The position numbers and the translations under genes are program-made. Below are positions 24,061-41,625 of a stretch of DNA of 64,000 bases, one piece after another. Source of the stretch: a virus; the IMG/VR virus record IMGVR_UViG_3300021437_000001, positions 53,955 to 117,954 of that record; one strand, given 5' to 3'. The notes under the pieces were generated by a model. It saw only the letters and a program-made list of their open reading frames with translations. It had not been told where the DNA came from and did not search any database. Position 1 is the stretch's first letter; the number at the start of each line of letters is the position of its first letter.

Positions 24061-24081
24061 GTGTCCTCCTATGTAAAACAT

Positions 24082-24108: not shown

Positions 24109-24123
24109 GTGAAAAAGTACGGC

Positions 24124-24152: not shown

Positions 24153-24179
24153 GGTTAAAGAGGAAACGGAGGAAATTTA

Positions 24180-24725: not shown

Positions 24726-24740
24726 TAAAGGAGAAAGAAA

Positions 24741-25310: not shown

Positions 25311-25313
25311 CTT

Positions 25314-26130: not shown

Positions 26131-26136
26131 GGTTGT

Positions 26137-26892: not shown

Positions 26893-26893
26893 T

Positions 26894-27250
26894 ATGATCA
26901 CTGCAAAAGTACAGTACGCTTTAACGCTGCTGAGAGACGTCCGAGATAAGGCAGATGGTCGTCCTATAAAACTAAAAGATGTGTCTAAGGCTCATCAATT
27001 AGATTTAAACTTCTTAGAACAAGTCGCACGATCCTTGCGTATTGCAGGAGTTTTGCGCTCTGTTCGAGGACCTGGAGGCGGTTACGTTTCTGGTCGAGAA
27101 CTATCAGGCATGAATCTGCTTGAAGTTATGGACGCCGTTGACGCAGCTAAGCAATTAAAGCATGCAACGCCTTCTGAAGGACCAATGCAGCTTAATCAAG
27201 CTGTCCATGCCGAACTAATGAAAGTAATCTCAACTATTCCGGTGTTGTAA
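26894..27250 (+). CDS. Rrf2-family transcriptional regulator
   Basis: 118 residues from ATG 26894, behind GGAGGAAT. VQYALTLLRDVRD, then IKLKDVSKAHQLDLNFLEQVARSLRIAGVLRS and RGPGGGYVSGRE follow the Rrf2 winged-helix pattern (winged HTH with the GxxGG wing), ending with NLLEVMDAVD. The three cysteines that hold the Fe-S cluster in IscR/NsrR are absent, so it should sense something else or act constitutively. Rrf2 genes are rare in phages. Confidence 0.85.
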   Translation: MITAKVQYALTLLRDVRDKADGRPIKLKDVSKAHQLDLNFLEQVARSLRIAGVLRSVRGPGGGYVSGRELSGMNLLEVMDAVDAAKQLKHATPSEGPMQLNQAVHAELMKVISTIPVL

Positions 27251-27251
27251 G

Positions 27252-27473
27252 ATGAGAGTCTTATCTGAAAGAGAAAGACTATTGGTTGAGCTAGTTCATT
27301 TACTTTCTTACGGAGATAAGATTGATTTCGGACTGACTCTAGAAGAAGTTCAAACTTATCTAGAAAAGCCGATACCTCGTAAGAAAAACAGAAACGCCCT
27401 TCAATGTCTTGATGCCGATGGAGAACGTTTTCTGCAACAATTAAAAGATCATTTAGCTGAACGTAAACGCTGA
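27252..27473 (+). CDS. Small hypothetical protein, 73 aa
   Basis: Coupled one base after the Rrf2 stop. Charged, helical (RERLLVELVHLLSYGD). Its last 25 bases overlap the convergent subtilase gene. No family recognised. Confidence 0.5.
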   Translation: MRVLSERERLLVELVHLLSYGDKIDFGLTLEEVQTYLEKPIPRKKNRNALQCLDADGERFLQQLKDHLAERKR

Positions 27474-28177
27474 CAAGCCGCTTGCAATAGCTCATGCGTA
27501 TAGATTGCAGTGGCTTGAGAACTTCCGCTCATACTGGCTTTTCCTGAGCGTTTATCAAAAGAAATAATGTGCTCTCCCTCTCTCCAAATCATTCCTGGTA
27601 GGCCAAAATTTGAACTAGGACTTCTTTGTTTTTCATTGACGCCATTACCTACCACTCGCATATTAGGTAGGTTTAAAGATGCAGGATAATAAGGCTCTTT
27701 GCTAATGTCCCATGCGGCCTTTTTAATTCTGCCGACTGTGTCTAATTCATAATTACCCGAGGCCACGACAATAATACCAGAGTAGGCTTTTACAGCTTTA
27801 GTCTCTTCTTTAATTTCCTCTCTGCCACCACCAGAAAAATTAACTATCTCTACGCCTAGGGTTTTTGCAAGTTCAAAACATTCAGCCGTTGAATGTGTTG
27901 CTGGATTGAAGAATTTGCATGAAATTATTTCGACTTCAGGGCACACTTTATCCGAAAGTTTTGGACCGAACAATATCAGTCCAGTGATGTGCGTGCCGTG
28001 TCCGTGTCTGTCTATTAAGTCAGAATCCGAGTTATGTTTAGATAAGAACGGCTGCAATTCGTCAATCTGACTGATGCCTGTATCTATTACCATTACTCGT
28101 ATCGAGTGTAGATTGGGTTCGCTTGCGCAAACCCCACCCATCAAAAAAGCTATTGAAAATAAAAATAGTTTTCTCAC
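27449..28177 (-). CDS. Secreted subtilase (S8) serine protease
   Basis: 242 residues with an N-terminal signal peptide (about 1-19, ending VCAS). The triad is visible: Asp in VMVIDTG (about residue 32), His in DRHGHGTHITG (about 60) and Ser in MSGSSQATA (about 219), plus VVASGN with the oxyanion Asn (about 140). It is short for a subtilisin and has no obvious pro-domain. Signal and fold suggest export to the periplasm or outside. Confidence 0.88.
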   Translation of the reverse strand: MRKLFLFSIAFLMGGVCASEPNLHSIRVMVIDTGISQIDELQPFLSKHNSDSDLIDRHGHGTHITGLILFGPKLSDKVCPEVEIISCKFFNPATHSTAECFELAKTLGVEIVNFSGGGREEIKEETKAVKAYSGIIVVASGNYELDTVGRIKKAAWDISKEPYYPASLNLPNMRVVGNGVNEKQRSPSSNFGLPGMIWREGEHIISFDKRSGKASMSGSSQATAIYTHELLQAACQRLRSAK

Positions 28178-28185
28178 AAAAAATC

Positions 28186-28623
28186 CTAATCTTTATCAGA
28201 ATGCTCTTTGTCATCCGAAGATTTAAGCATCATACACAAAACACTTCGTTGAAAGTTAAGGTCAATTCCAGCCTCATAAGTTCCATTGTTATTAATATCT
28301 GTAAAGCTATCAATAACAACTCCACCATTAGGGCAAAGTGAACTTGGGGCAAGATATTGTTTGATCACTGCATTAGCACCATGCGGTCCAGTGTCGCCTT
28401 TAGGACCTACGCTGCCCGTTGCACCGTTATAACCGTTCATGCCGTTAAGACCACGAGGGCCGACTGGACCAGTAGCACCTGTCAATCCAGTATCTCCTTT
28501 GTCTCCCTTATCACCTTTAAGTCCTTGCTTCCCTTGTACGGTTTTGACTTCGGAATAACCGTCATTACACCCTGAAAGTCCAATTGCAATTGCGATAAAA
28601 AACAACATCACTGCCAATTTCAT
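28186..28623 (-). CDS. Lipoprotein with collagen-like repeats
   Basis: 145 residues from ATG 28623, behind AAAGGAG. The signal ends in the lipobox LSGC (residues 15-18). Residues about 33-84 are G-x-y repeats (GLKGDKGDKGDTGLTGATG and on), which form collagen-like triple helices. A globular C-terminal part carries two cysteines. It is likely displayed on the cell surface as a trimer. With the subtilase it makes a surface pair, perhaps for superinfection exclusion or for modifying the host envelope. Confidence 0.85.
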   Translation of the reverse strand: MKLAVMLFFIAIAIGLSGCNDGYSEVKTVQGKQGLKGDKGDKGDTGLTGATGPVGPRGLNGMNGYNGATGSVGPKGDTGPHGANAVIKQYLAPSSLCPNGGVVIDSFTDINNNGTYEAGIDLNFQRSVLCMMLKSSDDKEHSDKD

Positions 28624-28636
28624 AAAATCTCCTTTG

Positions 28637-29557
28637 TTAGATAAGATTTGCATCGGTTAAAACTTCACGAATAGTCTCTTCGTCCTCGTAAGAGTCTTCT
28701 GAGACTCGCATTACGAGATTGTCACCTTCGTATTGATCATGCAGCGCCGCAAGATCTAGAATATCTTGGCGAGTAACTTCATCAATTGAATACTCTTCCT
28801 CGTCTAATTCAGTTTCATAGTCCTCATCAGTAAATTGATTCTCACGACCATATACTGTTTGATTCTCAATGGGCTTTTCACAAACTTGCAACACTTCAAA
28901 CTTACAAATACGCATCTTTTCACCGTTGTAGTCGATAGGTACTGCAACGACATCTTTAGGATTGATCTTTACTTCGACACGAGTCCCAGACCAATTAGAG
29001 GCATAGTTCCACGCTGCGGCATGCAATCCTGCCGAACACGTTCTAGTAGGGTCATCATCCACTTGCTCTCTAGGCATTTCACAAATAGCTCCTGGACTAT
29101 TGTCAAACTTTCCGGTGTGCTTGTCTTTAAAGTCCTCAGTCACGCCACGGTAGGCAATAAAACAACCGTCGTCAGTAAAAGGGTGTCCATTATGTTCAAG
29201 GAATTTAAACAATTGCTCTCGGGAACGGTAACTTGGATTCTGTTTGAGATTCTCCCAAAACTTAAGCAAGTAAGCAAATGGAATTCCTTCACGTTTAAAC
29301 TCTAAAATGCGGGCATTTAGTTCAGTTGGTAAAGCCTCACCTGTCGAAGTGATAACTTGACCGTCTACAATTCGCAAACCGTCTTTGGCAAATTGTGCAG
29401 AGATGTCAACGAGTTCGGGAATTTCTGCGATTCGCCCTTCTTTAATTGCCAAGATAACTTTACCAAAACGGTCGTCACCTCGAGCGATAGCCAGTGTTTT
29501 ACCGTCAAAATTTACAGTCACGCTGTTTTGTGTGATGTGATAATTTATTTTTCCCAT
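28637..29557 (-). CDS. rIIB: rIIB-like protein
   Basis: 306 residues. The block CFIAYRGVTEDFKDKHTGKF (about 132-151) and the CSAGLHAAAWNYAS block (about 174-187) match T4-type rIIB proteins. The C-terminus is acidic. In T4, rIIA and rIIB act together at the membrane, control lysis timing and counter rexAB-type exclusion. A sigma-28-type promoter (29581-29607) lies 24 bases upstream of the start. Confidence 0.88.
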   Translation of the reverse strand: MGKINYHITQNSVTVNFDGKTLAIARGDDRFGKVILAIKEGRIAEIPELVDISAQFAKDGLRIVDGQVITSTGEALPTELNARILEFKREGIPFAYLLKFWENLKQNPSYRSREQLFKFLEHNGHPFTDDGCFIAYRGVTEDFKDKHTGKFDNSPGAICEMPREQVDDDPTRTCSAGLHAAAWNYASNWSGTRVEVKINPKDVVAVPIDYNGEKMRICKFEVLQVCEKPIENQTVYGRENQFTDEDYETELDEEEYSIDEVTRQDILDLAALHDQYEGDNLVMRVSEDSYEDEETIREVLTDANLI

Positions 29558-29580: not shown

Positions 29581-29607
29581 TTATCGGTATAATTTTTTAA
29601 AACTTTA
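29581..29607 (-). promoter_or_regulatory. Sigma-28 (FliA)-type promoter for rIIB
   Basis: TAAAGTTT-N11-ACCGATAA on the - strand, a single mismatch to the FliA consensus TAAAGTTT-N11-GCCGATAA. The TAA of the -35 box is also the stop codon of the upstream gene. Confidence 0.8.
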
Positions 29608-29919
29608 GTGATTTATTGATTGATCTAGCAATTTTTTTAAAGCCTCTCGACCTTCTGCCATTGCTGCCAAGCTGACCGTGTTGTCTGGCGTATGCTCTCT
29701 CAATAGATTAAACATACGATCATACTCAGTAAACACTTCGGCCTTGCTAGTCACTAGCTGACCGATACTGTAAAGCACGGACAATTGAGCATCGGTTAGC
29801 ATTTTGAAACGCATGACTGTCATCCTATCGTCAATCTCTGAGTTATCCACGATAAGCGCATACTGTATCGTATTGATAAATGCCCTAGCCATGACTGCGT
29901 TAATATTAAGTTTTTCCAT
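29605..29919 (-). CDS. Hypothetical protein between rIIA and rIIB, 104 aa
   Basis: ATG 29919 is five bases after AAGGAG. Helical, with a long C-terminal segment (REHTPDNTVSLAAMAEGREALKK). It sits between rIIA and rIIB, which are adjacent in many phages. No family recognised. Confidence 0.6.
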   Translation of the reverse strand: MEKLNINAVMARAFINTIQYALIVDNSEIDDRMTVMRFKMLTDAQLSVLYSIGQLVTSKAEVFTEYDRMFNLLREHTPDNTVSLAAMAEGREALKKLLDQSINH

Positions 29920-29928
29920 ATTCACTCC

Positions 29929-31986
29929 TTATTTATTGTTTAGATACCATGTCATTTCACGTCTACATTCTGCATCTGAGTAACGGTCCATGTGTTTCAA
30001 CAATGGATATTTATCGTTAACTAACGCTTTCATTTCGGCGTCTTGTTCTAAAAACTTCACATACTCAGCATCATCTTTGAACCTTGTTACTAATACCGGA
30101 GGCACGTCCCTACCTTTATAAGCCTTGTTCATCATCTTGTATTGATCGACCATTTTAGTCAACTTTTTATTTTTAATGCCCTCAAGTTGAGACAGTTTCT
30201 CAATGATGTGTAAGTTTAAAGCCTTAGCACGCATCATTCTGAGACGTATGTCTTCGGTGATAGTGATTTGATCTGCCCAATCTTTATACAGAGTGAAGCC
30301 TTTTTCACCTTGTACGATTTCAAATGTTTCTTTCGAGACCGCAATAAAGATCGGCTTTTTGTTTTTTGCGTCGTGTCGTGAACCACCAAATTCTCGAATC
30401 ATTGTGTTCATTGATTCTTTTTTGTCTTGCCAGTCTGACAGTAAACAGTAAATATATTCTCGACCGCTTGCAGACATTGCCGATGCAGTTTCGGCGTTCG
30501 TGTCTCGACCGTAACCATTCAAGTAATGGATATTTTGTTGACTCGCAAGCTTGGCCGCCTTGATTGCTTTTGGTGTTCGTGGAGGCAAAACAAAAGTAAT
30601 GGCATGAAAGTCGTGAAACTTTCCTAAGATGTCTTGAAGGTCTTTCAAGGCCTTAGTTGGTGCCACGTCAAACTTTAATTGAGTGACTGTGCCTAGGCTA
30701 TCCGTTGTCGTGGTAGGTCTTGCTCGAATGATATACATATCTTTATTTGCACTAAGCACAGACTTGATTCGACGATTCATTGTCACTATCGACTCATCTT
30801 GATTGATCAAGTAGATGTTATGCAAATGATCAAATGGAATTCCCTTCACATTTGAGTCTTTGATCTTGTCACCACGCATTGTGTACTGGCGAAAAGTAAC
30901 AGAGCCAAGTAAGTTTGTATATAAATATTGACCGTCAAAACGAAAACCTTTGTATTCGTTATTTTGCATTACAAAATATTTGTACATACTGTGATAAACA
31001 GTGACGAATTCTTTGACAGTAGAGATTGCATTGATCTTTGCATTGACATGGTTTTTCACGTCAGTTAGAAGTTTAGTGCCGATCTTTGCAAGACCTTTGC
31101 GAGTAAAATCAGAATCATCAAGTTTTTCACGACTTGCGGAAACTTGCACAAGTCCATTAGGAATTCTGATCACCATGTAACCTGCTAATTCCTTGCGTAG
31201 GTTTTCCATTGGCGCTACTTTCTCTAATAGGTCAGAAGGTAGGGCATAAGGAATGCCGTCGATAACTAATAGACCTGAACGATTGTAGCCACTTGTAAGA
31301 TAACTAGGTAAAAAATCACTGCTATTAGTAATTAACAAAGGGCCAACTTCATAGCCTCGTAGCATAGAATCTAATGTCAAATTCTTTACCACTGGCATTT
31401 CTTCTTGTGTCCAAAAGTAACAGGCACGCTTGATCGAGTTACAAAATTCTGTAACATCTCTAGGATTGACTGCAATCTGTATTTCGCAGCCATTAGGCTG
31501 ATCAGTTTGAACTGTTTCGATTAAGTCCAATTGACCAACATTTGATGAGCCGACGTGCGCATTGTAGGTGCGACGTGTGCCGTTGACTGTGGATTGAATG
31601 ATAAAACCGTCTGCATAAGACCAAGCAGACTTAGCGCCAATGCCGAAGCCGCCTGTCTGTGTATTGTTTGTGCGCTTAGTAGAGGCACCATAAAGCACGA
31701 ACACATTAGCCATTCTGTCTGGACTAATACCAGGACCAAAGTCTCGAACTTTAAATGTTGGCTCAAGTTGAGTCGGCGCAACAACTTCGATGCGTCGAGT
31801 CTGTCCGATTTCACGATGTGCGTCACGAGCATTGCTCATGTATTCTTGTACAAGTGTGCGAATTTTATGCTCATATAAACGATTGCGAAGAATCTCAATA
31901 ACGACCGAAGGATCACCGATGCCAAATGATTGAGATTGAACGTCTTGATTTGATTCGTACTTGTTATTATGTCCAGCGATTCTCAT
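29929..31986 (-). CDS. rIIA: rIIA-like GHKL ATPase
   Basis: 685 residues. The N-terminal GHKL ATPase signatures are clear: EYMSNARDAHRE (about residues 43-54, the E-x-x-x-N-A-x-D helix), VRDFGPGISP (about 77-86, DxGxG) and TGGFGIGAKSAW (about 110-121, the ATP lid). This matches T4-type rIIA. Together with rIIB it guards against exclusion systems and affects lysis. Its start overlaps a CAAAGGAG leader that follows a sigma-28-type promoter. Confidence 0.88.
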   Translation of the reverse strand: MRIAGHNNKYESNQDVQSQSFGIGDPSVVIEILRNRLYEHKIRTLVQEYMSNARDAHREIGQTRRIEVVAPTQLEPTFKVRDFGPGISPDRMANVFVLYGASTKRTNNTQTGGFGIGAKSAWSYADGFIIQSTVNGTRRTYNAHVGSSNVGQLDLIETVQTDQPNGCEIQIAVNPRDVTEFCNSIKRACYFWTQEEMPVVKNLTLDSMLRGYEVGPLLITNSSDFLPSYLTSGYNRSGLLVIDGIPYALPSDLLEKVAPMENLRKELAGYMVIRIPNGLVQVSASREKLDDSDFTRKGLAKIGTKLLTDVKNHVNAKINAISTVKEFVTVYHSMYKYFVMQNNEYKGFRFDGQYLYTNLLGSVTFRQYTMRGDKIKDSNVKGIPFDHLHNIYLINQDESIVTMNRRIKSVLSANKDMYIIRARPTTTTDSLGTVTQLKFDVAPTKALKDLQDILGKFHDFHAITFVLPPRTPKAIKAAKLASQQNIHYLNGYGRDTNAETASAMSASGREYIYCLLSDWQDKKESMNTMIREFGGSRHDAKNKKPIFIAVSKETFEIVQGEKGFTLYKDWADQITITEDIRLRMMRAKALNLHIIEKLSQLEGIKNKKLTKMVDQYKMMNKAYKGRDVPPVLVTRFKDDAEYVKFLEQDAEMKALVNDKYPLLKHMDRYSDAECRREMTWYLNNK

Positions 31987-32033
31987 TGTGTTACTCCTTT
32001 GCTTGGCTTCATTGCCTTGCTTTCATATAATAC

Positions 32034-32060
32034 TTATCGGCAGGTTTTCAAAAAACTTTA
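32034..32060 (-). promoter_or_regulatory. Sigma-28 (FliA)-type promoter for rIIA, exact consensus
   Basis: TAAAGTTT-N11-GCCGATAA with no mismatches on the - strand, 48 bases upstream of the rIIA start. Confidence 0.88.
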
Positions 32061-32063
32061 GAA

Positions 32064-32342
32064 CTATTTTGAATTTCTTTTTTTATACTCTGACATATAA
32101 GACTCTTCCTTAGCGATTCGAGCCGCTTGCTCTTCATCCGTCTCATCTCGATAAGAATTCCAGCAAACATAAATATCTTGAGAAAAATTTGTATCTTCTG
32201 CCACAAAAACAAAAGTATTATGGCCCACAATTTCTTGTAACTGTTCAATATTAATTGCTTTATCTGGCAAAAGGGCTTTATGACTGGTCTGTACTTTTTG
32301 TTTTTCATAATTAATTTTAATAGCGTATGCGTATGCTGGCAT
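32064..32342 (-). CDS. Hypothetical protein, 92 aa
   Basis: ATG 32342 follows CAAGGAGA. A small alpha/beta protein with alternating strands (YAYAIKINYE, NTFVFVAED) and a charged C-terminal helix. It has its own sigma-28-type promoter 22 bases upstream. No family recognised. Confidence 0.6.
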   Translation of the reverse strand: MPAYAYAIKINYEKQKVQTSHKALLPDKAINIEQLQEIVGHNTFVFVAEDTNFSQDIYVCWNSYRDETDEEQAARIAKEESYMSEYKKRNSK

Positions 32343-32363
32343 TAAAATCTCCTTGTTTAATAC

Positions 32364-32390
32364 TTATCGGCAGAATTTTAAAAAACTTTA
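32364..32390 (-). promoter_or_regulatory. Sigma-28 (FliA)-type promoter, exact consensus
   Basis: TAAAGTTT-N11-GCCGATAA without mismatches. The TAA of its -35 box is the stop codon of the RepA-like gene. Confidence 0.88.
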
Positions 32391-33164
32391 GTCTTTTTTA
32401 ATAAATTTTTGTATATCGTCCATTGATATAAGTCCCATAGGTGCCAAGCCATTATTTACACTCTTCAATTCAAAAAAGAAGTCTGGCTGTTCACCGAAGG
32501 CTTTAAATTCAAAACCGACTTGCGTCACATGGCCCACGGGTTTAGTCAAAAAATAAGCGGCATCATACCAAGACCGCAAGTCTGAACTGCCTCGGATATT
32601 GTCTGCGGCATTCTTAGACTTTGACGTCTTATTGTGATGCACAAGCATGATCGCCGTGCCACTGTCCCGCTGTAAGTGTCTCAATTTGGTAAGTATCTTA
32701 CTCATTTGAGACGTGCTACCTTCGGCAGTGTTCGGAATGAGACGCACCAATGGGTCCATAATGATAAGCAATGGCCTCTCTTCAGTCACTTGCTTTCGCA
32801 ATGCCTCAAAATGCTCATCGTTATCTAGTGCGAAGTTTTGCCCTGCCACGATTGACACGTTTTGTCGTAGGTCTCGCATTGAGGCTTGTTTTGCTCTGCA
32901 AATTTGCTCTAGACGTTCTTTGATAATTGCACCGCTATCCTCGCCTTGTATCATCATGACTCTGCCTTGTTTCAATACGTTATACATTCCAAAACATTTT
33001 TCACCTGTGGCAATACTGACCAACAATTCACCAGCAAGCCAAGACTTTCTCGTTTTGGGATCACCTGCCACAAGACACGTTGACGACTCTGGTAGTAGTC
33101 TCTCAATGAGCCATGATGTGTTGCCTTTATCATCTAGTTGATCAATTGATTCAAACTTAAACAT
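32388..33164 (-). CDS. RepA-like hexameric ATPase/helicase (AAA_25)
   Basis: 258 residues. A RecA-fold ATPase with a divergent Walker A, AGDPKTRKSW (about 33-42), as found in RSF1010 RepA-type proteins where the middle Gly is replaced. Further blocks are VMMIQGEDSG (about 69), PLLIIMDPL (about 130, Walker B), IMLVHHNKTSKS (about 171) and IRGSSDLRSWYDAA (about 188). The family includes replicative helicases and recombination mediators. No RepA-type C-terminal primase is present. Confidence 0.82.
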   Translation of the reverse strand: MFKFESIDQLDDKGNTSWLIERLLPESSTCLVAGDPKTRKSWLAGELLVSIATGEKCFGMYNVLKQGRVMMIQGEDSGAIIKERLEQICRAKQASMRDLRQNVSIVAGQNFALDNDEHFEALRKQVTEERPLLIIMDPLVRLIPNTAEGSTSQMSKILTKLRHLQRDSGTAIMLVHHNKTSKSKNAADNIRGSSDLRSWYDAAYFLTKPVGHVTQVGFEFKAFGEQPDFFFELKSVNNGLAPMGLISMDDIQKFIKKD

Positions 33165-33188
33165 TTGGCCCTTGCCTTTCTCCTATCC

Positions 33189-33216
33189 TTATCGGTAGGT
33201 ATATTGAAAAACTTTA
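33189..33216 (-). promoter_or_regulatory. Sigma-28 (FliA)-type promoter, 12-base spacer
   Basis: TAAAGTTT-N12-ACCGATAA on the - strand, 25 bases before the RepA-like start. Confidence 0.75.
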
Positions 33217-33253
33217 GCAAAATAGTCAACTATTACAATAAAAAAATGTCTAC

Positions 33254-33475
33254 CTAGTTGAACTGAGACGTCTCAGGTAGATACATTTCATTGAGTTGAT
33301 CAAGTAAAATGCTAGCGTACACCTCGGGTGTATTGATATGAGACGGTAGGTTCGTGATTAGTACCACGAACCCAGACGCCTCGAGTGTTTCAATCCAGGA
33401 CATTGCCTCATCATCTAATTCATTGACAAGACGTTCTGCTGTAGCATATTGAGATTTACCTTTGATTAGTATCAT
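33254..33475 (-). CDS. Small hypothetical protein, 73 aa
   Basis: ATG 33475 lies in GGAGTCAAAATG. A compact alpha/beta protein (SWIETLEASGFVVLITNLPS). No family recognised. First of a tight four-gene run whose ends overlap. Confidence 0.6.
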   Translation of the reverse strand: MILIKGKSQYATAERLVNELDDEAMSWIETLEASGFVVLITNLPSHINTPEVYASILLDQLNEMYLPETSQFN

Positions 33476-33666
33476 TTTGACTCCAATTTTTGGTTTATTA
33501 ATTCTTGCAATCCTCGTGCCGATACCATTAATGAATGAATTTCTAACATTAAGACGCCACAAACTAACGGCATATCAGATTGATTCAAGTGGCCGTGTCT
33601 CTCCATTTGAGACACTAATGCCTTGAGTTTGTTTGCTCTGTCAATCATAAACTGAACCTGTTCCAT
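33472..33666 (-). CDS. Small helical protein, 64 aa
   Basis: Start in AGGAGTCTCATAATG, so half of the GTCTCA motif separates the ribosome site and the ATG. Two helices likely (VQFMIDRANKLKALVSQME, ILEIHSLMVSARGLQEL). No family recognised. Confidence 0.6.
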   Translation of the reverse strand: MEQVQFMIDRANKLKALVSQMERHGHLNQSDMPLVCGVLMLEIHSLMVSARGLQELINQKLESK

Positions 33667-33968
33667 TATGAGACTCCTAGGAATTTGTAGCGTTTTGTTA
33701 CGACGTGTACTGTATTAAATTGAGACGTGTTGACTATTTCTCCAGTCTCGACGTTCAATAGTTCAAAACTTGAGTCTGAAATCAGTACCTCAGTGACGTC
33801 TTGACTTAGTCGGTAGCATCCTATCTTTTTGCCCTCTGAGTACTTGCGGACCCATGCGGTAGCATCGGCGAAAGTGTCAAGCGGTGTCGATAAGTCTCGA
33901 CCGTTTTGCGTGACCATGTACCAAGACCGTTGACCAAGGGTATGTCTTAAAATGAAACACTTATCCAT
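33666..33968 (-). CDS. Hypothetical protein, 100 aa
   Basis: A beta-rich small protein (CFILRHTLGQRSWYMVTQNG, VTEVLISDSSFELLNVETG). Overlaps the neighbours by one to eight bases. No family recognised. Confidence 0.6.
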   Translation of the reverse strand: MDKCFILRHTLGQRSWYMVTQNGRDLSTPLDTFADATAWVRKYSEGKKIGCYRLSQDVTEVLISDSSFELLNVETGEIVNTSQFNTVHVVTKRYKFLGVS

Positions 33969-34191
33969 TTGACACCTTCTTGTTTCGTTTTGATACAGGT
34001 AGGTTTCGAGACTCTTTCAAGGCTTGCTGCGCATCTTGAATCATGCTTTCGACTGCGGTCAATGTAACTTTTGCGCCGTGAGCCTTAACAACGGCTAGCA
34101 AAACTTGTGCCAAATTCATTATTAACACCGTGTCCTCATTGAAGACAGGATTAGGTTGTTTCAATTTGATAACTTTCGCATTCTGTTCCAT
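33961..34191 (-). CDS. Small hypothetical protein, 76 aa
   Basis: Leader CAAAGGAGTATCAAAATG, a form shared with three other genes in this region. The C-terminus is basic (SKRNKKVSNG). It carries a sigma-28-type promoter 33 bases upstream, so it heads the run 34191-33254. No family recognised. Confidence 0.6.
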   Translation of the reverse strand: MEQNAKVIKLKQPNPVFNEDTVLIMNLAQVLLAVVKAHGAKVTLTAVESMIQDAQQALKESRNLPVSKRNKKVSNG

Positions 34192-34223
34192 TTTGATACT
34201 CCTTTGTTTAGTGTTCGTTTTTC

Positions 34224-34251
34224 TTATCGGACGATTGAGTCAAAAACTTAA
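34224..34251 (-). promoter_or_regulatory. Sigma-28 (FliA)-type promoter, 12-base spacer
   Basis: TTAAGTTT-N12-TCCGATAA on the - strand. The weakest of the eight (two base changes and a long spacer), but in the same position relative to a start codon. Confidence 0.65.
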
Positions 34252-34270
34252 GAACTATTTTTGTCTCAAA

Positions 34271-34873
34271 TTAGCACGCTCCCCAGCCAGCAAGCATCGT
34301 CTCAAATTGAGACTCTTTTTTGATTGCTTTTTCACGTTCAATTTTTATTTTTGCGTCAAGTTTTGCCTTGACCGTTGCAATTTTTGTCTTGAGGCTTGCA
34401 ATCCTTTTTTGCAAGCCTTGCGGTCTCAAGTCACCTTGACAGACTGGACATTTTGCGGACTGATAGACTTTCAAGGCAAGCAATCGAGACTTGCAAGCGC
34501 CGCAAGTGTGAAAGGCTTTCGACCGTGTCAACGGCTTGCTTTCAAGGTCACGCAATTGCGTCGATAGCGCCTTGACTCGGTCTTGCAATTTTGACAGTGA
34601 CTTGCTTTCGATAGTCACCTCACAAAAATAAACAGCCACAACGGTGTCCCATTTTGAGGCATTTTTCAAACAAAAATCATGTGCCTCATTATAAGACGTA
34701 AAGACTTGATCAAGTCTATAGTCTACTTTTGAGACAGTTTGAAAGTCGCCGCTATAACCGTCTTGATGTCCATTTTCGAGACGGTCTTGATCTTGTTTTG
34801 ACTTAAATAGATCATAAATCTCATTTCGAGACAACTTTCCTTTTCTAGTTGTCTCAATATTACACGCTCCCAT
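34271..34873 (-). CDS. Zinc-ribbon protein with helical coil, 200 aa
   Basis: Residues about 120-150 have CGACKSRLLALKVY and CPVCQGDLRPQG, a rubredoxin-like zinc ribbon. It is flanked by helical, lysine-rich stretches (LQKRIASLKTKIATVKAKLD). The N-terminus has a compact domain (IYDLFKSKQDQDRLENGHQD). Phage proteins of this form are common but uncharacterised. No sigma-28-type promoter precedes it; it follows the MGYTHYW gene terminator. Confidence 0.62.
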   Translation of the reverse strand: MGACNIETTRKGKLSRNEIYDLFKSKQDQDRLENGHQDGYSGDFQTVSKVDYRLDQVFTSYNEAHDFCLKNASKWDTVVAVYFCEVTIESKSLSKLQDRVKALSTQLRDLESKPLTRSKAFHTCGACKSRLLALKVYQSAKCPVCQGDLRPQGLQKRIASLKTKIATVKAKLDAKIKIEREKAIKKESQFETMLAGWGAC

Positions 34874-34920
34874 TTGACACGCTCCTTTTTGATACGTTGT
34901 TTAGTAGACGTCACGAAAAA

Positions 34921-34948
34921 GGCCCCATCTCAAAATGAGACAGGGCCA
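34921..34948 (-). terminator. Terminator hairpin built around the GTCTCA palindrome
   Basis: On the - strand a GGCCC stem closes on TGTCTCATTTTGAGAT and GGGGCC and is followed by TTTTTC. It lies 8 bases after the stop of the MGYTHYW gene. The palindrome forms the upper half of the stem. Confidence 0.7.
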
Positions 34949-34955
34949 CAAAGGA

Positions 34956-35438
34956 TTACACCGCCTCATCCTGAGACGTTTTTCGGACATTTGGTTGTAT
35001 TGAATTGGGAATCTGTATTCTTTTGAGACCAGTTATTTTGCGTGCCAAAATGAGACCATCATTCCAGTCGTCTTGACGTCCGTCGCTTGCGACGTCGATA
35101 AGATCACCTAGACGATGTTTCAAAATGATAAGGCAAGCGGTCACGACTGTATCATACGGATACATATTCGTTTTGCAAAAATCTGACTCATTTTGAGACA
35201 AGTGCTCTCGCATAACGAAGTCCTCACATGAGCCGACTCGTTCTGAGCCATTCACTTTGAGACCACCATAGAGTTTTGGCTCACAATGAGCCGAAAATCC
35301 AGCGAGACCGCCAAACGTCTCAGAATAATACCGTATCGTTTTGGCACATTCATAAATCGCTTTTTGATACGCTGCCTCAGATTGAGTCGCTTTGCCTTTC
35401 GGCGCTTTTTTGAAAGTCCAGTAATGCGTATATCCCAT
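34956..35438 (-). CDS. Phage MGYTHYW-type conserved protein
   Basis: 160 residues beginning MGYTHYWTFKKAPKG, a start seen in a widespread but uncharacterised phage protein family. The middle has GLAGFSAHCEP and GSCEDFVM. Several places where palindrome copies fall give the peptide pattern SQxE (SQNESD, SQDEAV). Function unknown. A sigma-28-type promoter is 68 bases upstream. Confidence 0.65.
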   Translation of the reverse strand: MGYTHYWTFKKAPKGKATQSEAAYQKAIYECAKTIRYYSETFGGLAGFSAHCEPKLYGGLKVNGSERVGSCEDFVMREHLSQNESDFCKTNMYPYDTVVTACLIILKHRLGDLIDVASDGRQDDWNDGLILARKITGLKRIQIPNSIQPNVRKTSQDEAV

Positions 35439-35505
35439 TTTGATACTCCTTTGTTTTGAGACCGTCGTCTTGACAAGTCTCGGTTTTGTTTTGCTGTCTT
35501 ATCTC

Positions 35506-35532
35506 TTATCGGTCACTTTTTTAAAAACTTGA
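35506..35532 (-). promoter_or_regulatory. Sigma-28 (FliA)-type promoter
   Basis: TCAAGTTT-N11-ACCGATAA on the - strand, two mismatches to the consensus. Confidence 0.75.
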
Positions 35533-35558
35533 GGCTTTCAGTCAACTTTTTTAAAAAA

Positions 35559-35846
35559 TCACGCCGCTTTAAATTGATTCAATATGTCCCAATCTGAGAC
35601 AGTTTCATTGGTATCGTCCCAAACTAAGACAGTACGTCCAGCGTGACCGTGCAATAGGATAGCGTCAACCCATGTCTCAAATTGAGTCACTGAATTGATC
35701 TTGCGAGTCGAGCCGTCCGCAAGTTTTGCGTCAACGGTCCAGCGGACTTGCGTCAAGCCTTGCGCATTGACTTGACCGCTTGCAACGTGTCCAGTGCCCG
35801 ACGTGCCTGTCAAGTCTTGCAATCGTATCAACTTAAATGTTCTCAT
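35559..35846 (-). CDS. Hypothetical protein, 95 aa
   Basis: Start ATG 35846 lies in CAAAGGAGTCTCAAAATGAGA, so the whole palindrome covers the start codon. The longer frame from 35906 adds an unlikely N-terminus. Beta-rich (GTGHVASGQV, TVLVWDDTNETV). No family recognised. Confidence 0.6.
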   Translation of the reverse strand: MRTFKLIRLQDLTGTSGTGHVASGQVNAQGLTQVRWTVDAKLADGSTRKINSVTQFETWVDAILLHGHAGRTVLVWDDTNETVSDWDILNQFKAA

Positions 35847-35932
35847 TTTGAGACTCCTTTGTTTACGTCTTGCGTCAATATTGACAGACGACGTCAAAAC
35901 AGTCAAGTAAAAAATACAGTCTCATTTTGAGA

Positions 35933-36130
35933 CTAAAGACCGTACCATGTCAAACTGAGACGGTCTTGATTTTCATTCAATCGGTCAAGTTCAAGGTCTG
36001 TCAAGTCTTGCAACGTGTCAAGATAGCTTGCGGACTGGACAAAAAAGCCGTCGCCGTCCAGTGACTCGACGCAAGCCTCAATTTTTCGACCGTCAACGGT
36101 CAAAACAAGATCTTTTTTGCGTTGTCTCAT
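35933..36130 (-). CDS. Small hypothetical protein, 65 aa
   Basis: Begins MRQRKK; the stop lies at the edge of an exact palindrome copy (35919-35933). Leu- and Asp-rich second half (LTDLELDRLNENQDRLSL). No family recognised. Confidence 0.55.
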   Translation of the reverse strand: MRQRKKDLVLTVDGRKIEACVESLDGDGFFVQSASYLDTLQDLTDLELDRLNENQDRLSLTWYGL

Positions 36131-36131
36131 A

Positions 36132-36800
36132 TTAAGCCACCTTATCCCACGTCGTGTTTTGATAGTTTTTTGCGCCGTGATAGACTAGACCGATTTTGTT
36201 TTGCTTGCCTTGCGCCGCTATCAAGTCGTCTTGCGTGCTGTCAACGTAGCCAGCCGCTTGCAATGCCTCTAGACTTTCAAACACTTTCGAGTGAAAGTCT
36301 GTCTCAATTTGAATCAAGTCGTCTTGTTTGCCACCGAAGGAAAAAATGACTCGGAATGAGACAGGCAAGTTTTTATAGGACTGTATCATTTTGACCATTT
36401 TTGAATAGGCATAAAATGAGACACGTTTTTCTGTCTCAAAATGGCGCATGATTGCAATCCATTTTTCAAAATATTCAAGGCTGTAAAAATCACCCGCATC
36501 ATGAATTCTCACTTTGAGATTTTCAACGCTTCTCTTTTTGAGCCATGTCTCAATTTCGGAAATCATTGCAGGGACAAAATTCTCACTTTGAGACAGTTCA
36601 AGTTTTGCATTATGAGCCGATACGGACGACTTGAAACGATACGTTCCAGATCGAGCGTAGCATCCTGAGACGCATGCGCTTGCCATTGGGCACGTCTTGA
36701 AACCTGTCTCAGATTGAAACGCTGGCAAGGTCCAGTTAACGACCGTTGTCCCACTTTGAGACGACTTTTTCATTTTTGCATTTTGAGTTAACAATATCAT
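36132..36800 (-). CDS. Gp88-like phage protein
   Basis: 222 residues. CPMASACVSGCYARSGTY (about 37-54) and VRIHDAGDFYSLEYFEKW (about 96-113) match the Gp88 family of phage proteins. The cysteine cluster suggests metal or Fe-S binding. Copies of the palindrome inside the gene are read as FQSETG, LSQSEN and IQIETD. Its start codon sits in CAAAGGAGTATCAAAATG. A sigma-28-type promoter is 48 bases upstream. Confidence 0.75.
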   Translation of the reverse strand: MILLTQNAKMKKSSQSGTTVVNWTLPAFQSETGFKTCPMASACVSGCYARSGTYRFKSSVSAHNAKLELSQSENFVPAMISEIETWLKKRSVENLKVRIHDAGDFYSLEYFEKWIAIMRHFETEKRVSFYAYSKMVKMIQSYKNLPVSFRVIFSFGGKQDDLIQIETDFHSKVFESLEALQAAGYVDSTQDDLIAAQGKQNKIGLVYHGAKNYQNTTWDKVA

Positions 36801-36847
36801 TTTGATACTCCTTTGTTTTGCAAGCCGTCTTGACTTGCTTGACTATC

Positions 36848-36874
36848 TTATCGGTCACTTTTTTAAAAACTTGA
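36848..36874 (-). promoter_or_regulatory. Sigma-28 (FliA)-type promoter for the Gp88-like gene
   Basis: TCAAGTTT-N11-ACCGATAA on the - strand, identical in core and spacer to the 35506 element. Confidence 0.75.
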
Positions 36875-36887
36875 GGCCTTTTTTGCA

Positions 36888-36931
36888 AAAAAATAAAAAA
36901 AGAGGCCGTATCAGATTGATACAGCCCCTAT
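36888..36931 (-). terminator. Terminator with a GTATCA-N3-TGATAC stem
   Basis: On the - strand AGGGGCTGTATCA pairs with TGATACGGCCTCT and is followed by a long T-rich tail. It ends the DUF932-like gene, 11 bases after its stop. The stem is the GTATCA variant of the regional palindrome. Confidence 0.75.
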
Positions 36932-36941
36932 TCGTCTCAAA

Positions 36942-37730
36942 TTAAGCCGCTTTGATCAATTGAGTCGCAGCGTCCCATATTGAGGCGTTCAAGTCGATAG
37001 CTTTCACGCTTTCAGTCTTGATTTTGCGTGCTGTCATGTTGCGGACGTTTTGCACGCCGTTCTCATCTTGAGACACTGTTTGGTATCTCAATCCGAAACG
37101 AATAATGTTCTCTTGTATCACATTGAGACAACTAAACAAGTCATTTTTTGCGTCGTCTTGACGTCGGACTTTCAGCAAGTCCGCAATCTCAATCTTGACA
37201 ACGTTGTCAATGCCTTGCAATCGGATTGACGCAACGTCTTGCGCAAGCTTGATCAACTCACTCGGTGACACGTCACGGGCTTGCATCATTTTGACCGTAT
37301 CAACTAAAGACTCACGTTGAGCAACTAGTCTCGGAATGAGACTGTCAAGTTCTTGATACGGATTGCCTAAGTGTTTCACTTTGATTGTCTCAAAATGAGT
37401 CCCAACGTTCAATTGGTTGGCGCAAGTCCCACGGAAAAGACCTAAAACGCCTTGAAGTGAGCCGTATAAATGTGGGACTTTAAAAATGATGTCAAAACCG
37501 AGGCCGTCAATTGCAAAACCGTCTCTTGATCGGTATCTTGCAACGGTCGTTTGAAAGTCTTGACGGTCTGGACTTTTTGCCTTGCCTGTCTTAAGATGAA
37601 CTAGGTCAAAACCGTGACTGTCTAGGACTTCAGCTATCAATGCGGGCTTGATAGCTTGAAAGCGGTCTGATTTTGAAACGTGTTTTTGATCTTGCACGAA
37701 GCTAGTTGAAACTGTGTTATTTTGAGACAT
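36942..37730 (-). CDS. DUF932-like phage/plasmid protein
   Basis: 262 residues. The core YGSLQGVLGLFRGTCANQLNVG (quoted in part) and the upstream GLGFDIIFKVPH resemble DUF932 proteins, found on phages and plasmids beside DNA-handling genes. ATG 37730 follows CAAAGGAAGTGC. A longer ATG at 37763 lacks a ribosome site. A sigma-28-type promoter lies 53 bases upstream and a terminator directly downstream, so it is a single-gene unit. Confidence 0.6.
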   Translation of the reverse strand: MSQNNTVSTSFVQDQKHVSKSDRFQAIKPALIAEVLDSHGFDLVHLKTGKAKSPDRQDFQTTVARYRSRDGFAIDGLGFDIIFKVPHLYGSLQGVLGLFRGTCANQLNVGTHFETIKVKHLGNPYQELDSLIPRLVAQRESLVDTVKMMQARDVSPSELIKLAQDVASIRLQGIDNVVKIEIADLLKVRRQDDAKNDLFSCLNVIQENIIRFGLRYQTVSQDENGVQNVRNMTARKIKTESVKAIDLNASIWDAATQLIKAA

Positions 37731-37782
37731 TTTGCACTTCCTTTGTTTTAACGGTCGCATCATTGCGCCGTCGATAGTTAAC

Positions 37783-37809
37783 TTATCGGTGACTTTTTAA
37801 AAAACTTGA
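37783..37809 (-). promoter_or_regulatory. Sigma-28 (FliA)-type promoter
   Basis: TCAAGTTT-N11-ACCGATAA on the - strand, two mismatches to consensus; the right-most copy. Confidence 0.75.
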
Positions 37810-37828
37810 GGCCTTTTTTAAAAAAAAC

Positions 37829-37954
37829 TTATCTTTTTTGCATCGACTCGACAACTGTCTTAATTTGAGCCGTTGTCGGTATTGACACCATCAAGCACGC
37901 CGCCCCATAAAGATACAGTCCTAAAATGAGACTAAAAGCTATTAACTGTTTCAT
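37829..37954 (-). CDS. Small signal-bearing peptide, 41 aa
   Basis: ATG 37954 starts a frame reading MKQLIAFSLILGLYLYGAAC, a signal-like or transmembrane start with a cysteine that is not in a canonical lipobox. A short polar tail follows, ending MQKR. The start is preceded by GGAGAATCTCAAT. Confidence 0.45.
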   Translation of the reverse strand: MKQLIAFSLILGLYLYGAACLMVSIPTTAQIKTVVESMQKR

Positions 37955-37966
37955 ATTGAGATTCTC

Positions 37967-38116
37967 CTATTGTTTAGTATTTAAGTCAAGTATATTCTCA
38001 TCTTGAGACGAAAAAGACTCGACCGCTAAGTATCCCAATATGAGACACCAAGCTGTTGTGTATCCATTTGAGCCGAAAGTCAAGTAAACAAAAATAAGCA
38101 ATGAAAACTGTTTCAT
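37967..38116 (-). CDS. Small membrane protein, 49 aa
   Basis: ATG 38116 begins MKQFSLLIFVYLTFG, with further hydrophobic residues to about 35 and an acidic tail. It resembles the 41-aa peptide next to it in the MKQ start, size and membrane character, perhaps a duplicated pair. The in-frame upstream ATG at 38206 lies inside another gene. Confidence 0.45.
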   Translation of the reverse strand: MKQFSLLIFVYLTFGSNGYTTAWCLILGYLAVESFSSQDENILDLNTKQ

Positions 38117-38132
38117 ATTGATACGCCCCTTT

Positions 38133-38402
38133 TTATTCAAAATCAGATAAGTCAAAACCCATTGAGTCAACGGCTTGCAAGACAGGCGTCTCAAAATGAG
38201 ACTCATATAGACTTATCAAGTCTTGACCTAGGTCTTGCACGGCTTGACTTTTTGACGCTTGCATTGCACGCAAGGCTTTCGACTTATAACTCATGTCACC
38301 ACCCATGCAACGGTCAAGCTGTCTCAAAGTGAGATGCTCAACGATTTCTGTCCAGATTTGAGACATTTGAGCTTGAACTTGACGATTTTTGTCTTGTCTC
38401 AT
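38133..38402 (-). CDS. Hypothetical helical protein, 89 aa
   Basis: MRQDKNRQ start, Q- and S-rich, largely helical (KALRAMQASKSQAVQDLGQD). It carries one exact palindrome copy (38188-38202) read as SHFETP. The start lies right after the stop of the next upstream gene. No family recognised. Confidence 0.55.
   Translation of the reverse strand: MRQDKNRQVQAQMSQIWTEIVEHLTLRQLDRCMGGDMSYKSKALRAMQASKSQAVQDLGQDLISLYESHFETPVLQAVDSMGFDLSDFE
38188..38202. repeat. Exact copy of GTCTCA-N3-TGAGAC inside a coding region
   Basis: A perfect 15-base palindrome with AAA in the centre, located inside the 89-aa gene. Confidence 0.9.
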
Positions 38403-38403
38403 A

Positions 38404-38565
38404 TTAAGCCGCCTTTCTCAAAACGATACATACGGTTGGATTGTTCTCAAATTGAGCCTGTTGCTTTTTGATACGTTTTGGCTTGCTTGCGCCCTCGGCG
38501 TGTCCAGCCTTAAGTTTTGTCAAAATCACGTTTTTTTGTCCAGCTATCAGTTTAGGTTGTCTCAT
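38404..38565 (-). CDS. Small basic protein, 53 aa
   Basis: A frame from ATG 38565 to TAA 38404. It begins MRQPKLIAGQKNVIL and has K/R-rich stretches (KPKRIKKQQ). It shares the MRQ start with three other local genes. A strong sigma-70-like promoter lies about 170 bases upstream, and it is the first gene of the leftward block. Confidence 0.5.
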   Translation of the reverse strand: MRQPKLIAGQKNVILTKLKAGHAEGASKPKRIKKQQAQFENNPTVCIVLRKAA

Positions 38566-38734
38566 TTTGAAGCCTTTCGTTTCGGGTTGATACTTAACTA
38601 TCTTGCACGCCGCATGCCAACGTAAACACCTGAATTCACTTAAGTCTCAATCTGAGAAAGCGTCGATCTTTTAGTCAATCCAGCCCCTAAACCCTAAACC
38701 CCAGCAAAACCCACTACTTAAGGCCTGTCAATCT

Positions 38735-38762
38735 TATATACAAGAGTGACAGTTTTTGTCAA
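38735..38762 (-). promoter_or_regulatory. Strong sigma-70 promoter reading left
   Basis: TTGACA (38757-38762) and TATATA (38735-38740) on the - strand with a 16-base spacer, close to consensus. It would transcribe the genes from 38565 leftward. Confidence 0.75.
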
Positions 38763-38880
38763 GTATCTCATATTGGTACACTGCCACGTTTTCACCTATA
38801 TATAGAAAAACAACATAATCCCATAGTGAGACATATACACTTATTAAGGTCTATCTAGTCAAGGTCAAGTCTAGACCTAG

Positions 38881-39032
38881 GTCAACGGATAGCGTGACGA
38901 TAGGTCAAGGCCTTGAGATAGTATTGCGGCAAGGTCAACGGATAGCAAGACAGAAAGGATTGAAATCTCAATATGAGACATGAATGGGTGTGAGTGTGTT
39001 GGAATGAGACAATCAGCGGATAGCAAGACAGA
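38881..39032. repeat. Direct repeat CGGATAGC(A/G)(A/T)GAC, three copies
   Basis: GTCAACGGATAGCGTGAC at 38881, GGTCAACGGATAGCAAGAC at 38933 and ATCAGCGGATAGCAAGACAG at 39012, spaced 52 and 79 bases apart with GGTCAAG words between. Iteron-like arrangement. Confidence 0.75.
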
Positions 39033-39277
39033 CGACCGTTGTCAAGCGTCAAAAAACTATCTAGTCGAGCGCAAAGCGTTTCAATTTGAGAATCTATGCG
39101 AAAATAAAAAAGAAAAAAGAAAGCGTCTCAAAATGAGACTCTGACGATAATGTATATTATCATCACGTTTCAAAATGAGAATCCTCAATGAATACGGGGG
39201 GATAGCTGCGTTGCAGTGCCGAGGCCCTATGCTTGTGCCTAGTAGTCTCTCACAATTTTTTTAGCATTATATTAGTT

Positions 39278-39290
39278 GACGCACTGCGTT
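39278..39290. promoter_or_regulatory. Operator-like palindrome GACGCACTGCGTT
   Basis: ACGCA-C-TGCGT inverted repeat, just downstream of a TATATT stretch. Related copies are at 39416, 39538 and 56093. Confidence 0.5.
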
Positions 39291-39415
39291 AAGCCTACAG
39301 TTTGCCAGACAGTTGATTTCCAGAAACGAAAATCCTGATTGAAAATTTTATTTTTTGAGTGTGTAATAAGTTCTTGATTAGATTGCTAGTTTTTGTATTT
39401 TTTACACTTATAAAT

Positions 39416-39428
39416 GACGCATTGCATC
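39416..39428. promoter_or_regulatory. Operator-like palindrome GACGCATTGCATC
   Basis: Second copy; follows TATAAAT directly and touches the stop of the 85-aa membrane gene. Confidence 0.45.
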
Positions 39429-39685
39429 TAAAAGTTAGTTTTGCTTCTACCTGTCCGGTTCAGTGTCGTTTCCAGACAGCTTAGGGTCATCCCAGGGAAA
39501 CTTACAGGACTTCTTGTGCATGTCGGACGTATTGTTTGACGCACTGCATCTGAGGCTTTCTCGACGGTTTCACGAACCATATAATGAGCTACGATGATAC
39601 TCAATCCTCCGACAACAATTGTCAAGCCGACTCCCCATGCAACGGCACATGCGATAGAATCAGCCACACTGTGAAATTTTTTCAT
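39428..39685 (-). CDS. Small membrane protein, 85 aa
   Basis: A transmembrane helix at about residues 14-33 (AWGVGLTIVVGGLSIIVAHY), then a polar tail with two cysteines. One operator-like palindrome (39538-39550) lies inside the gene. The start overlaps the PDZ gene stop, with TAGGCGGTAGG as leader. No family recognised. Confidence 0.55.
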   Translation of the reverse strand: MKKFHSVADSIACAVAWGVGLTIVVGGLSIIVAHYMVRETVEKASDAVRQTIRPTCTRSPVSFPGMTLSCLETTLNRTGRSKTNF

Positions 39686-40212
39686 TTCCTACCGCCTAGG
39701 CAGATCTTGTCTCTAGTCATCGTCAAAGTCAGAAATTCTCCGGTACTTGGTCGAAAAATCATAAGTCGTACAATAGTCCCAGGTTCTCCCCTAATTTCGG
39801 GTCCGGTCTGAGAATCTACAGATTTTATGACATCTCCAATGCGCAACCCAGCTTTATCCGCTGGATAGCCTTTTGCAACTTCGTCTACTGTATCAGTCAG
39901 GAAATCTTGTTGTATCCCAACCCCACCGTACCAACGGTCATCTTGGCATTCTGTCAACCCTTCGACTTTTTCTTTTTTAAGCTTTTCGATTGTCGCCTCA
40001 TCTTCTTGAGGTTCTGGAGGTTCAACCATTTCCACTTCTATGACTTTTGGCAGAATATCTTGAAAAGTCTCTTTAGACCCAGCCCTCTGCCCTATACCTT
40101 CTCCAGACTTACCTTGTTTTTCTTCAGATGGAATATAAAGCACAACGGCTAGCAAGACAGCTAGGTGTAAAAGTAAACTTGTCACAAAAGGTAAGTATTT
40201 TTTGTAATTCAT
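39682..40212 (-). CDS. Membrane-anchored PDZ-domain protein
   Basis: 176 residues. N-terminal anchor at about 8-27 (VTSLLLHLAVLLAVVLYIP), then a polar, proline- and glutamate-rich linker like that of TonB-type proteins (VEPPEPQEDEATIEKLKKEK). It ends in a PDZ domain with GYPADKAGLRIGDVIKSVD (about 114-132), the peptide-binding loop and helix. No protease domain is fused. It may bring periplasmic partners such as the trypsin-like protease to the membrane. Confidence 0.78.
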   Translation of the reverse strand: MNYKKYLPFVTSLLLHLAVLLAVVLYIPSEEKQGKSGEGIGQRAGSKETFQDILPKVIEVEMVEPPEPQEDEATIEKLKKEKVEGLTECQDDRWYGGVGIQQDFLTDTVDEVAKGYPADKAGLRIGDVIKSVDSQTGPEIRGEPGTIVRLMIFRPSTGEFLTLTMTRDKICLGGRK

Positions 40213-40218
40213 TAATCC

Positions 40219-40389
40219 TCAACTAAAATACAATTGCAGGGCTTTTGCACAGGCTTCGGCCTGACTCTCAGTCAAAAACCTATCGTAGATTTCTTCACCA
40301 AGCAGTACAAACCAAGCACCTTGCTTCTGGACAGTGGATTTTCGTAACTGTTCGAAACTTAGAGCTTTTTGGTGAACAACTCTAATCAT
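40219..40389 (-). CDS. Small hypothetical protein, 56 aa
   Basis: ATG 40389 overlaps the stop of the preceding gene (taATG). It begins MIRVVHQKALSFEQL, ends LQLYFS, and has one strand-helix-strand pattern (GAWFVLLGEEIYDRFLTESQ). Coupling and length support it. No family recognised. Confidence 0.5.
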   Translation of the reverse strand: MIRVVHQKALSFEQLRKSTVQKQGAWFVLLGEEIYDRFLTESQAEACAKALQLYFS

Positions 40390-40631
40390 TAAACCGCCCC
40401 GCTATCTCTGTCATCATCCCAGAAAGGTTTTACTTTCTCATTTTTAAACCCTTTACCAGGATTTACAACTTCCACTAATTCTACCCGTACCTTAACGACT
40501 CCGCAACTCTCAACGCAACGACGTTCACGTCGCAAGTCTTCGACACTGCAATAGACTTCAGTTCCGCCAAGAGCTTCTCCAATTTCCCAATCCCAATCGG
40601 TCTGGCACATATAGCCGTATTTGTCGCTCAT
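40389..40631 (-). CDS. Hypothetical protein, 80 aa
   Basis: Charged, two cysteines spaced as CVESC near residue 39. Overlaps both neighbours by a few bases. No family recognised. Confidence 0.55.
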   Translation of the reverse strand: MSDKYGYMCQTDWDWEIGEALGGTEVYCSVEDLRRERRCVESCGVVKVRVELVEVVNPGKGFKNEKVKPFWDDDRDSGAV

Positions 40632-41611: not shown

Positions 41612-41625
41612 TACATAATCTTTCA

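Follow-up and report, generated by a model that had tools for sequence, protein, structure and literature searches.

Which RNA polymerase transcribes a phage gene block whose genes stand behind sequences resembling flagellar promoters? Phages normally rely on the housekeeping sigma factor of their host or encode their own. In virus record IMGVR_UViG_3300021437_000001 (117,954 bp; linear and possibly incomplete), a run of genes that includes rIIA, rIIB and a RepA-like ATPase is headed by eight elements of the sigma-28 (FliA) promoter type. The run lies within the 64,000-nt stretch analysed here (bases 53955-117954 of the record; hereafter the window), whose numbering is used throughout unless another stretch is named. 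Judged from the DNA sequence, the eight elements are very probably promoters that RNA polymerase uses together with a sigma-28 (FliA)-clade factor of the host, and the block as a whole probably answers to alternative sigma factors of the host.

The pattern TAAAGTTT-N11-GCCGATAA is the published Escherichia coli sigma-28 consensus (PMC2859248), and the E. coli tar promoter carries the identical octamers (PMC4183435). Scanning for TAAAGTTT-N11/12-GCCGATAA, with 0-2 mismatches tolerated, recovered all eight elements that a first-pass annotation of this DNA had placed on the - strand (Table 1). They are co-oriented and fall between 29581 and 37809. Two match the consensus at 16 of 16 positions and the other six lie within two mismatches. 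The -35 octamer TAAAGTTT is exact in half of the sites (4/8) and carries one change (TCAAGTTT or TTAAGTTT) in the remaining four. The -10 octamer GCCGATAA retains CCGATAA in 8/8, its first base being G in two sites and A or T in six. The octamers are separated by 11 bases at six sites and by 12 at two. Two subtypes can be recognised: rIIA and the 92-aa gene carry TAAAGTTT/GCCGATAA, the DUF932, GP88 and 160-aa genes TCAAGTTT/ACCGATAA. At all eight sites the end of the -10 box lies 21-67 bp from the start codon, and every start has a Shine-Dalgarno sequence.

Eight sites with at most two mismatches compare with a mean of 0.27 and a maximum of 2 in 60 genomes simulated with a second-order Markov model. 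None of 100 shuffled sequences reached an equal number of matches. Together, the shuffles, the Markov genomes, the reversed pattern and the control contigs rule out a chance origin. The annotation had reported no other copies in the window; this was borne out, and a scan of the whole 117,954-bp record, including the remaining ~110 kb, found none either. As far as sequence can tell, the consensus match, the clustering, the position before starts and a footprint-like conservation in relatives give good support to its assignment of the elements to the sigma-28 (FliA) type. The sigma-70-like promoters that it had proposed for the structural genes were not supported, as matches occurred only at chance frequency (41 vs 40.3, 36 vs 41.4 and 41 vs 49.9).

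Table 1. Predicted promoter elements, genes and other features of the window (coordinates in the window)
Feature	Position	Strand	Remarks
Sigma-28-type promoter, TCAAGTTT-N11-ACCGATAA	37783-37809	-	2 mismatches; upstream of DUF932 gene (true start 37730); orthologue site in G001 and G006
Sigma-28-type promoter, TCAAGTTT-N11-ACCGATAA	36848-36874	-	2 mismatches; upstream of GP88-family gene; terminator-like hairpin 36929-36901 precedes
Sigma-28-type promoter, TCAAGTTT-N11-ACCGATAA	35506-35532	-	2 mismatches; upstream of conserved 160-aa gene
Sigma-28-type promoter, TTAAGTTT-N12-TCCGATAA	34224-34251	-	2 mismatches; upstream of 76-aa gene; N12 also in G001 and G006
Sigma-28-type promoter, TAAAGTTT-N12-ACCGATAA	33189-33216	-	1 mismatch; upstream of RepA-like AAA_25 ATPase gene
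Predicted sigma-28 promoter, exact consensus	32364-32390	-	0 mismatches; upstream of 92-aa gene
Predicted sigma-28 promoter, exact consensus	32034-32060	-	0 mismatches; upstream of rIIA; also in G001, G041/L193
Sigma-28-type promoter, TAAAGTTT-N11-ACCGATAA	29581-29607	-	1 mismatch; upstream of rIIB; also in G001, G041/L193
Candidate sigma-54-type promoter, TTGGCATGCGGCGTGCA	38604-38620	-	upstream of 53-aa gene 38404-38565; G001 orthologue has sigma-28 site instead
Candidate sigma-54-type site, TCGGCACGAGGATTGCA	33506-33522	-	upstream of gene 33254-33475; weaker evidence, absent in G001
DUF932 protein gene	36942-37730	-	PF06067, 1.3e-11; 273 aa from upstream ATG 37763; Shine-Dalgarno start 37730
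GP88-family protein gene, 222 aa	36132-36800	-	PF17338, 1.5e-37
160-aa protein gene	34956-35438	-	best-conserved module marker (48-72% across relatives)
76-aa protein gene	33961-34191	-	
RepA-like AAA_25 ATPase gene, 258 aa	32388-33164	-	PF13481, 3.5e-29; phrog_3123
92-aa protein gene	32064-32342	-	
rIIA gene, 685 aa	29929-31986	-	phrog_612, 1e-74
rIIB gene, 306 aa	28637-29557	-	phrog_609, 5e-66
Array of ~90 palindromes, GTCTCA-N3-TGAGAC	32700-39300		15 bp, <=3 mismatches; overlaps five of the eight promoters
Fis-like protein, 98 aa	10144-10440	+	HTH_8, 3e-12
85-aa protein, sigma region-4-like helix-turn-helix	56157-56414	+	no region 2; Pfam scan

Conservation among relatives carries the argument further. 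Contigs encoding a related capsid protein (86-91% identity) were found, and core sigma-28 sites number nine in G001 and four in G006, upstream of the same orthologues and with module and orientation unchanged. When orthologous promoters from four phages are aligned, identity is 97% for the -35 octamer and 97% for the -10 octamer, compared with 54% for the spacer, 58% for the 20 bp upstream and 55% for the 15 bp downstream. Octamers held at 97% amid surroundings at 54-58% show selection on the recognition bases. Finer details persist too: the N12 spacing ahead of the 76-aa gene is common to three phages, and the TCAAGTTT/ACCGATAA subtype is retained at the same genes in relatives. The rIIA protein of the window phage is 72% identical to that of G001 and 57% to that of a third lineage (G041/L193). 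This lineage has an exact site ahead of rIIA and a one-mismatch site ahead of rIIB, with different spacers.

The block behind these sites is a run of short transcription units, some preceded by terminator-like hairpins, for instance that of the GP88-family gene. Genes were identified by Pfam and phrog profile matches, the Pfam scan covering most of the larger reading frames, and these matches confirmed the earlier naming of rIIB, rIIA and the RepA-like ATPase. The first-pass annotation had also counted one promoter per transcription unit. Eight genes are indeed headed by a site, but genes 34271-34873 and 35559-35846 stand behind a terminator-like hairpin and lack such a site, so that one promoter per unit is not an exact rule.

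The same region contains a second dense set of sites, an array of about 90 palindromes where about 3 are expected (32.7-39.3 kb; median spacing 50 bp). The palindromes occur in all reading phases and in both coding and intergenic DNA. Their half-sites vary independently of each other. For this reason an origin as RNA hairpins was rejected, and the pattern fits DNA sites bound by a dimeric protein instead. Given such an array of protein sites, the octamers could likewise be sites for a phage DNA-binding protein and not promoters at all, their likeness to sigma-28 promoters being accidental. This is very improbable, as 8/8 octamer pairs are co-oriented just ahead of Shine-Dalgarno starts, and the two boxes and their spacing equal a known promoter, at 16/16 positions in two sites. 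The palindrome array recurs in G001 (87 copies), G006 (64), G082, G067 and G078; the stretches that carry it are L135 (3.2-12 kb), L136 (from 5.5 kb), L195, L196, L138 and L150. As a guess, the 98-aa Fis-like protein is a candidate binder of the array. Its gene is present in G082, which has the array, and absent in G081, which does not; no Fis-like match was found in the array-bearing G001, G006, G067 and G078, at least some of these contigs being partial.

Do relatives without sigma-28 sites drive the module in another way? In two large contigs, G081 and G082, the module is present (160-aa protein, rIIA and rIIB, plus GP88 or DUF932) and sigma-28 sites are absent. The motif found there instead, TGGCAC/T-N6-TGCA/T, is the -24/-12 motif of sigma-54, published as TGGCAC and TGC with 5-7 bases between (PMC12316311); it comprises TGGCAC/T and TTGCA/T elements whose GG and GC lie 10 bases apart. 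G082 holds 18 such motifs, 17 of them at 48-71 kb (control 1), and G081 holds eight, seven of them at 26-38 kb (control 3). Eight each were counted in G067 and G078 (controls 0 and 2), and G006 has three alongside its sigma-28 sites. Across 80 loci found via the 160-aa protein, there were 109 motifs against 6 for the reversed control, with at least three at 11 loci. Enrichment is confined to the N6 form (104 motifs, compared with 1-3 for other spacer lengths), and unconstrained positions are biased as in sigma-54 promoters, with T before TGC and A or G after TGGCAY. The clusters of this motif in the module of related phages lie in stretches L194, L195 and L202-L219.

The two classes of site replace each other at two pairs of orthologous genes. 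The 53-aa gene 38404-38565 has a candidate sigma-54-type site in the window, where its G001 orthologue has a sigma-28 site. For gene 35559-35846, the G001 orthologue carries a sigma-28 site and that of G006 a sigma-54-type one. Similarly, the clade of the window phage has a sigma-28 site ahead of rIIA, and G082 a sigma-54-type site 27 bp upstream of the rIIA start. These swaps suggest that selection keeps the module under alternative sigma factors of the host, while allowing the class of factor to change. The 160-aa gene has its sigma-28 site only in the window clade, with neither motif at other loci, so such wiring would be a tendency of the module and not a rule for each gene.

The pattern also extends well beyond these relatives. 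IMG/VR was searched with the exact sigma-28 pattern, with the reversed pattern as control. At least 119 stretches matched, many with 2-4 copies among the matches listed, compared with 31 stretches in all, of one copy each, for the control. When the whole records behind true matches were counted, G010 had ten core sites, G044 seven, and G009, G012 and G018 six each. Unrelated contigs range from 3 to 10, whereas the 31 control contigs hold one in total. A Shine-Dalgarno start lies within 120 bp downstream of 58/93 exact matches, compared with 6/30 controls. In G012, the sigma-28-type sites stand ahead of the terminase small subunit and portal genes, so the class of gene differs between phages. 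This recurrence in many uncultured phages suggests that phage gene control may commonly draw on alternative sigma factors of the host, an input that has been overlooked. As a separate observation, TTGAC occurs in the spacer of sigma-28-type sites in G044 (L144, L147, L149), G014, G016, G024, G036 and G074, and G044 has a TATAGT-like box downstream of its sites, as if a sigma-70 promoter were overlaid on each. The TTGACA-like spacer sequence in several cluster-bearing phages may represent overlapping sigma-70 promoters.

Which factor, then, reads the sites? Sigma region 2 (PF04542) was not detected in the 118-kb record, which makes host RNA polymerase with a sigma-28-family factor the likeliest reader. 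Alternatively, the phage could encode a sigma factor or specificity protein with a sigma-28-like taste, and the sites would then be ordinary middle or late promoters unrelated to host state. The 85-aa region-4-like protein would suit this idea, as would the weak sigma region-2-like genes of G010 and G044 and the terminase and portal sites of G012. Yet region 2, the domain that reads the -10 box, is undetectable in the record, and the 85-aa protein is too small to act as a sigma factor alone. In addition, known phage sigma factors, T4 gp55 among them, recognise different sequences, while this motif agrees with the host consensus in its two boxes and the distance between them. A phage-encoded reader is thus improbable, though less so in G010 and G044. 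The weak region-2-like genes were noted at L145:630-1040 (gp55-like by eye) and L146:111-1106.

Several observations nevertheless weigh against a host factor as the reader and against the wider wiring of the block. The phage encodes the 85-aa region-4-like protein; G010 and G044, both with sigma-28-type clusters, carry the weak region-2-like genes; and the record, being linear and possibly incomplete, might lack the gene for a phage sigma factor. No sigma-28 site was found at the module of more distant lineages, with rIIA 34-36% identical. As for the sigma-54-type motifs, only about 40% of coding-strand sites lie ahead of a start codon (about 15% for random positions), and about 30% of motifs are on the opposite strand, without association to gene starts. 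Given this partial association, not all of them need be promoters.

Under the reading favoured here, RNA polymerase with a host sigma-28-clade factor would recognise the eight elements; both this recognition and the host origin of the factor are what we infer from the motif and its setting. In an infected cell with active sigma-28, the genes for the DUF932, GP88-like and small proteins, the RepA-like ATPase, rIIA and rIIB would be switched on, expressed as several short transcription units. With sigma-54-type sites in relatives, instead of or in addition to sigma-28 sites, it is probable that alternative sigma factors of the host drive the whole block, and the output of its part of infection would then follow the regulatory state of the host.

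That state may be motility. According to PMC12316311, which cites Vibrio cholerae, the flagellar hierarchy of many Proteobacteria with polar flagella is under the joint control of sigma-54 and sigma-28, and motility is hence the first guess. A coupling of the gene block to host motility is plausible; any such link, like the time at which the block would be expressed, is again what we infer. Sigma-54 also has many non-flagellar roles, which tells against certainty on this point. In a broader and more tentative form, a widespread module might be wired to sigma-54 or sigma-28, whichever factor of the flagellar hierarchy suits the host, with the class swapped gene by gene in the course of evolution. 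Such phages would then sense the motile state of their host, and part of infection would run only, or more strongly, in motile cells.

It is also conceivable, if somewhat unlikely, that the host factor belongs to the sigma-28 clade and runs a non-flagellar programme such as development, predation or sporulation, which would couple the block to another cell state. Promoter specificity is common to members of the clade: WhiG controls a non-flagellar programme (PMC8325347), and in Bdellovibrio the FliA motif TTAAG-N16-CCGATA is found at two thirds of attack-phase promoters (PMC3627812). Conversely, the extended octamer TAAAGTTT of enterics and pseudomonads, together with the sigma-54-type sites of relatives, fits flagellate Proteobacteria.

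Searches for the host of the phage did not find one. No close cultured relative was found, the capsid protein being 31-35% identical to those of SPO1-like phages. Neither capsid relatives nor an exact match of the phage initiator-type tRNA was found in genome contigs, and near matches of the other cluster-bearing contigs were not found in the phage collection. Clusters of sigma-28 sites may themselves serve as a signature that narrows the hosts of uncultured phages to bacteria with active sigma-28.

Other genes were noted in passing. An initiator-type tRNA-Met with encoded CCA (55514-55590, - strand) adjoins a branched-chain aminotransferase gene (54495-55409). An integrase beside the tRNA was considered and rejected: the neighbour is the aminotransferase and the XerC-like tyrosine recombinase lies at 51236-52081, so nothing points to an att site there. 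Host-like genes among the reading frames of 19157-28653 and 37967-55409 include NifU-like, Rrf2, FKBP, Clp protease, SET domain and ThyX genes and the XerC-like recombinase. A full-length phage GroEL chaperonin is encoded at L009:4663-6312 (+; phrog_5725, 1.9e-116).

How does this arrangement compare with known systems? A search of a non-subscription literature collection found no prior description of clustered sigma-28 promoters in a phage. The phage sites share their -35 and -10 octamers and spacing with bacterial class 3 flagellar (sigma-28/FliA) promoters. They differ in that they head phage genes, three are TCAAGTTT/ACCGATAA variants and two have N12 spacing, and in that recognition is here predicted from sequence. 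Enterobacter prophages engage the flagellar system by other means, through phage-encoded flagellin and TldR systems (PMC13418256). Those prophages remodel host flagellin, whereas a search of this phage for a FlgM-like anti-sigma gene found none and Pfam scans returned no flagellin domain.

A dedicated promoter class for one block of phage genes is also a feature of T4 (gp55) and SPO1 (gp28/gp34), but those phages encode the sigma factor, and no region 2 was detected here. A further parallel is offered by the alphaproteobacterial 'lytic deferment' phages, in which clusters of CtrA sites make expression depend on the cell cycle of the host (PMC9437464). There, too, sites for a regulator of host cell state are clustered in one region of the genome and have arisen in several lineages, although those are operators of an activator/repressor and the present ones are predicted sigma-factor promoters. 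If the reading is correct, infection would be coupled, through a conserved phage block under host sigma-28 promoters, to a lifestyle switch of the bacterium, giving a link between motility and phage development that can be tested directly. Another parallel is Pseudomonas phage YuA, whose development depends on host sigma-54, as stated in PMC5053324. Both would use promoters of a host alternative sigma factor without a phage sigma factor of that kind, and relatives of the window phage have sigma-54-type sites, whereas the window itself has mainly sites of the sigma-28 class.

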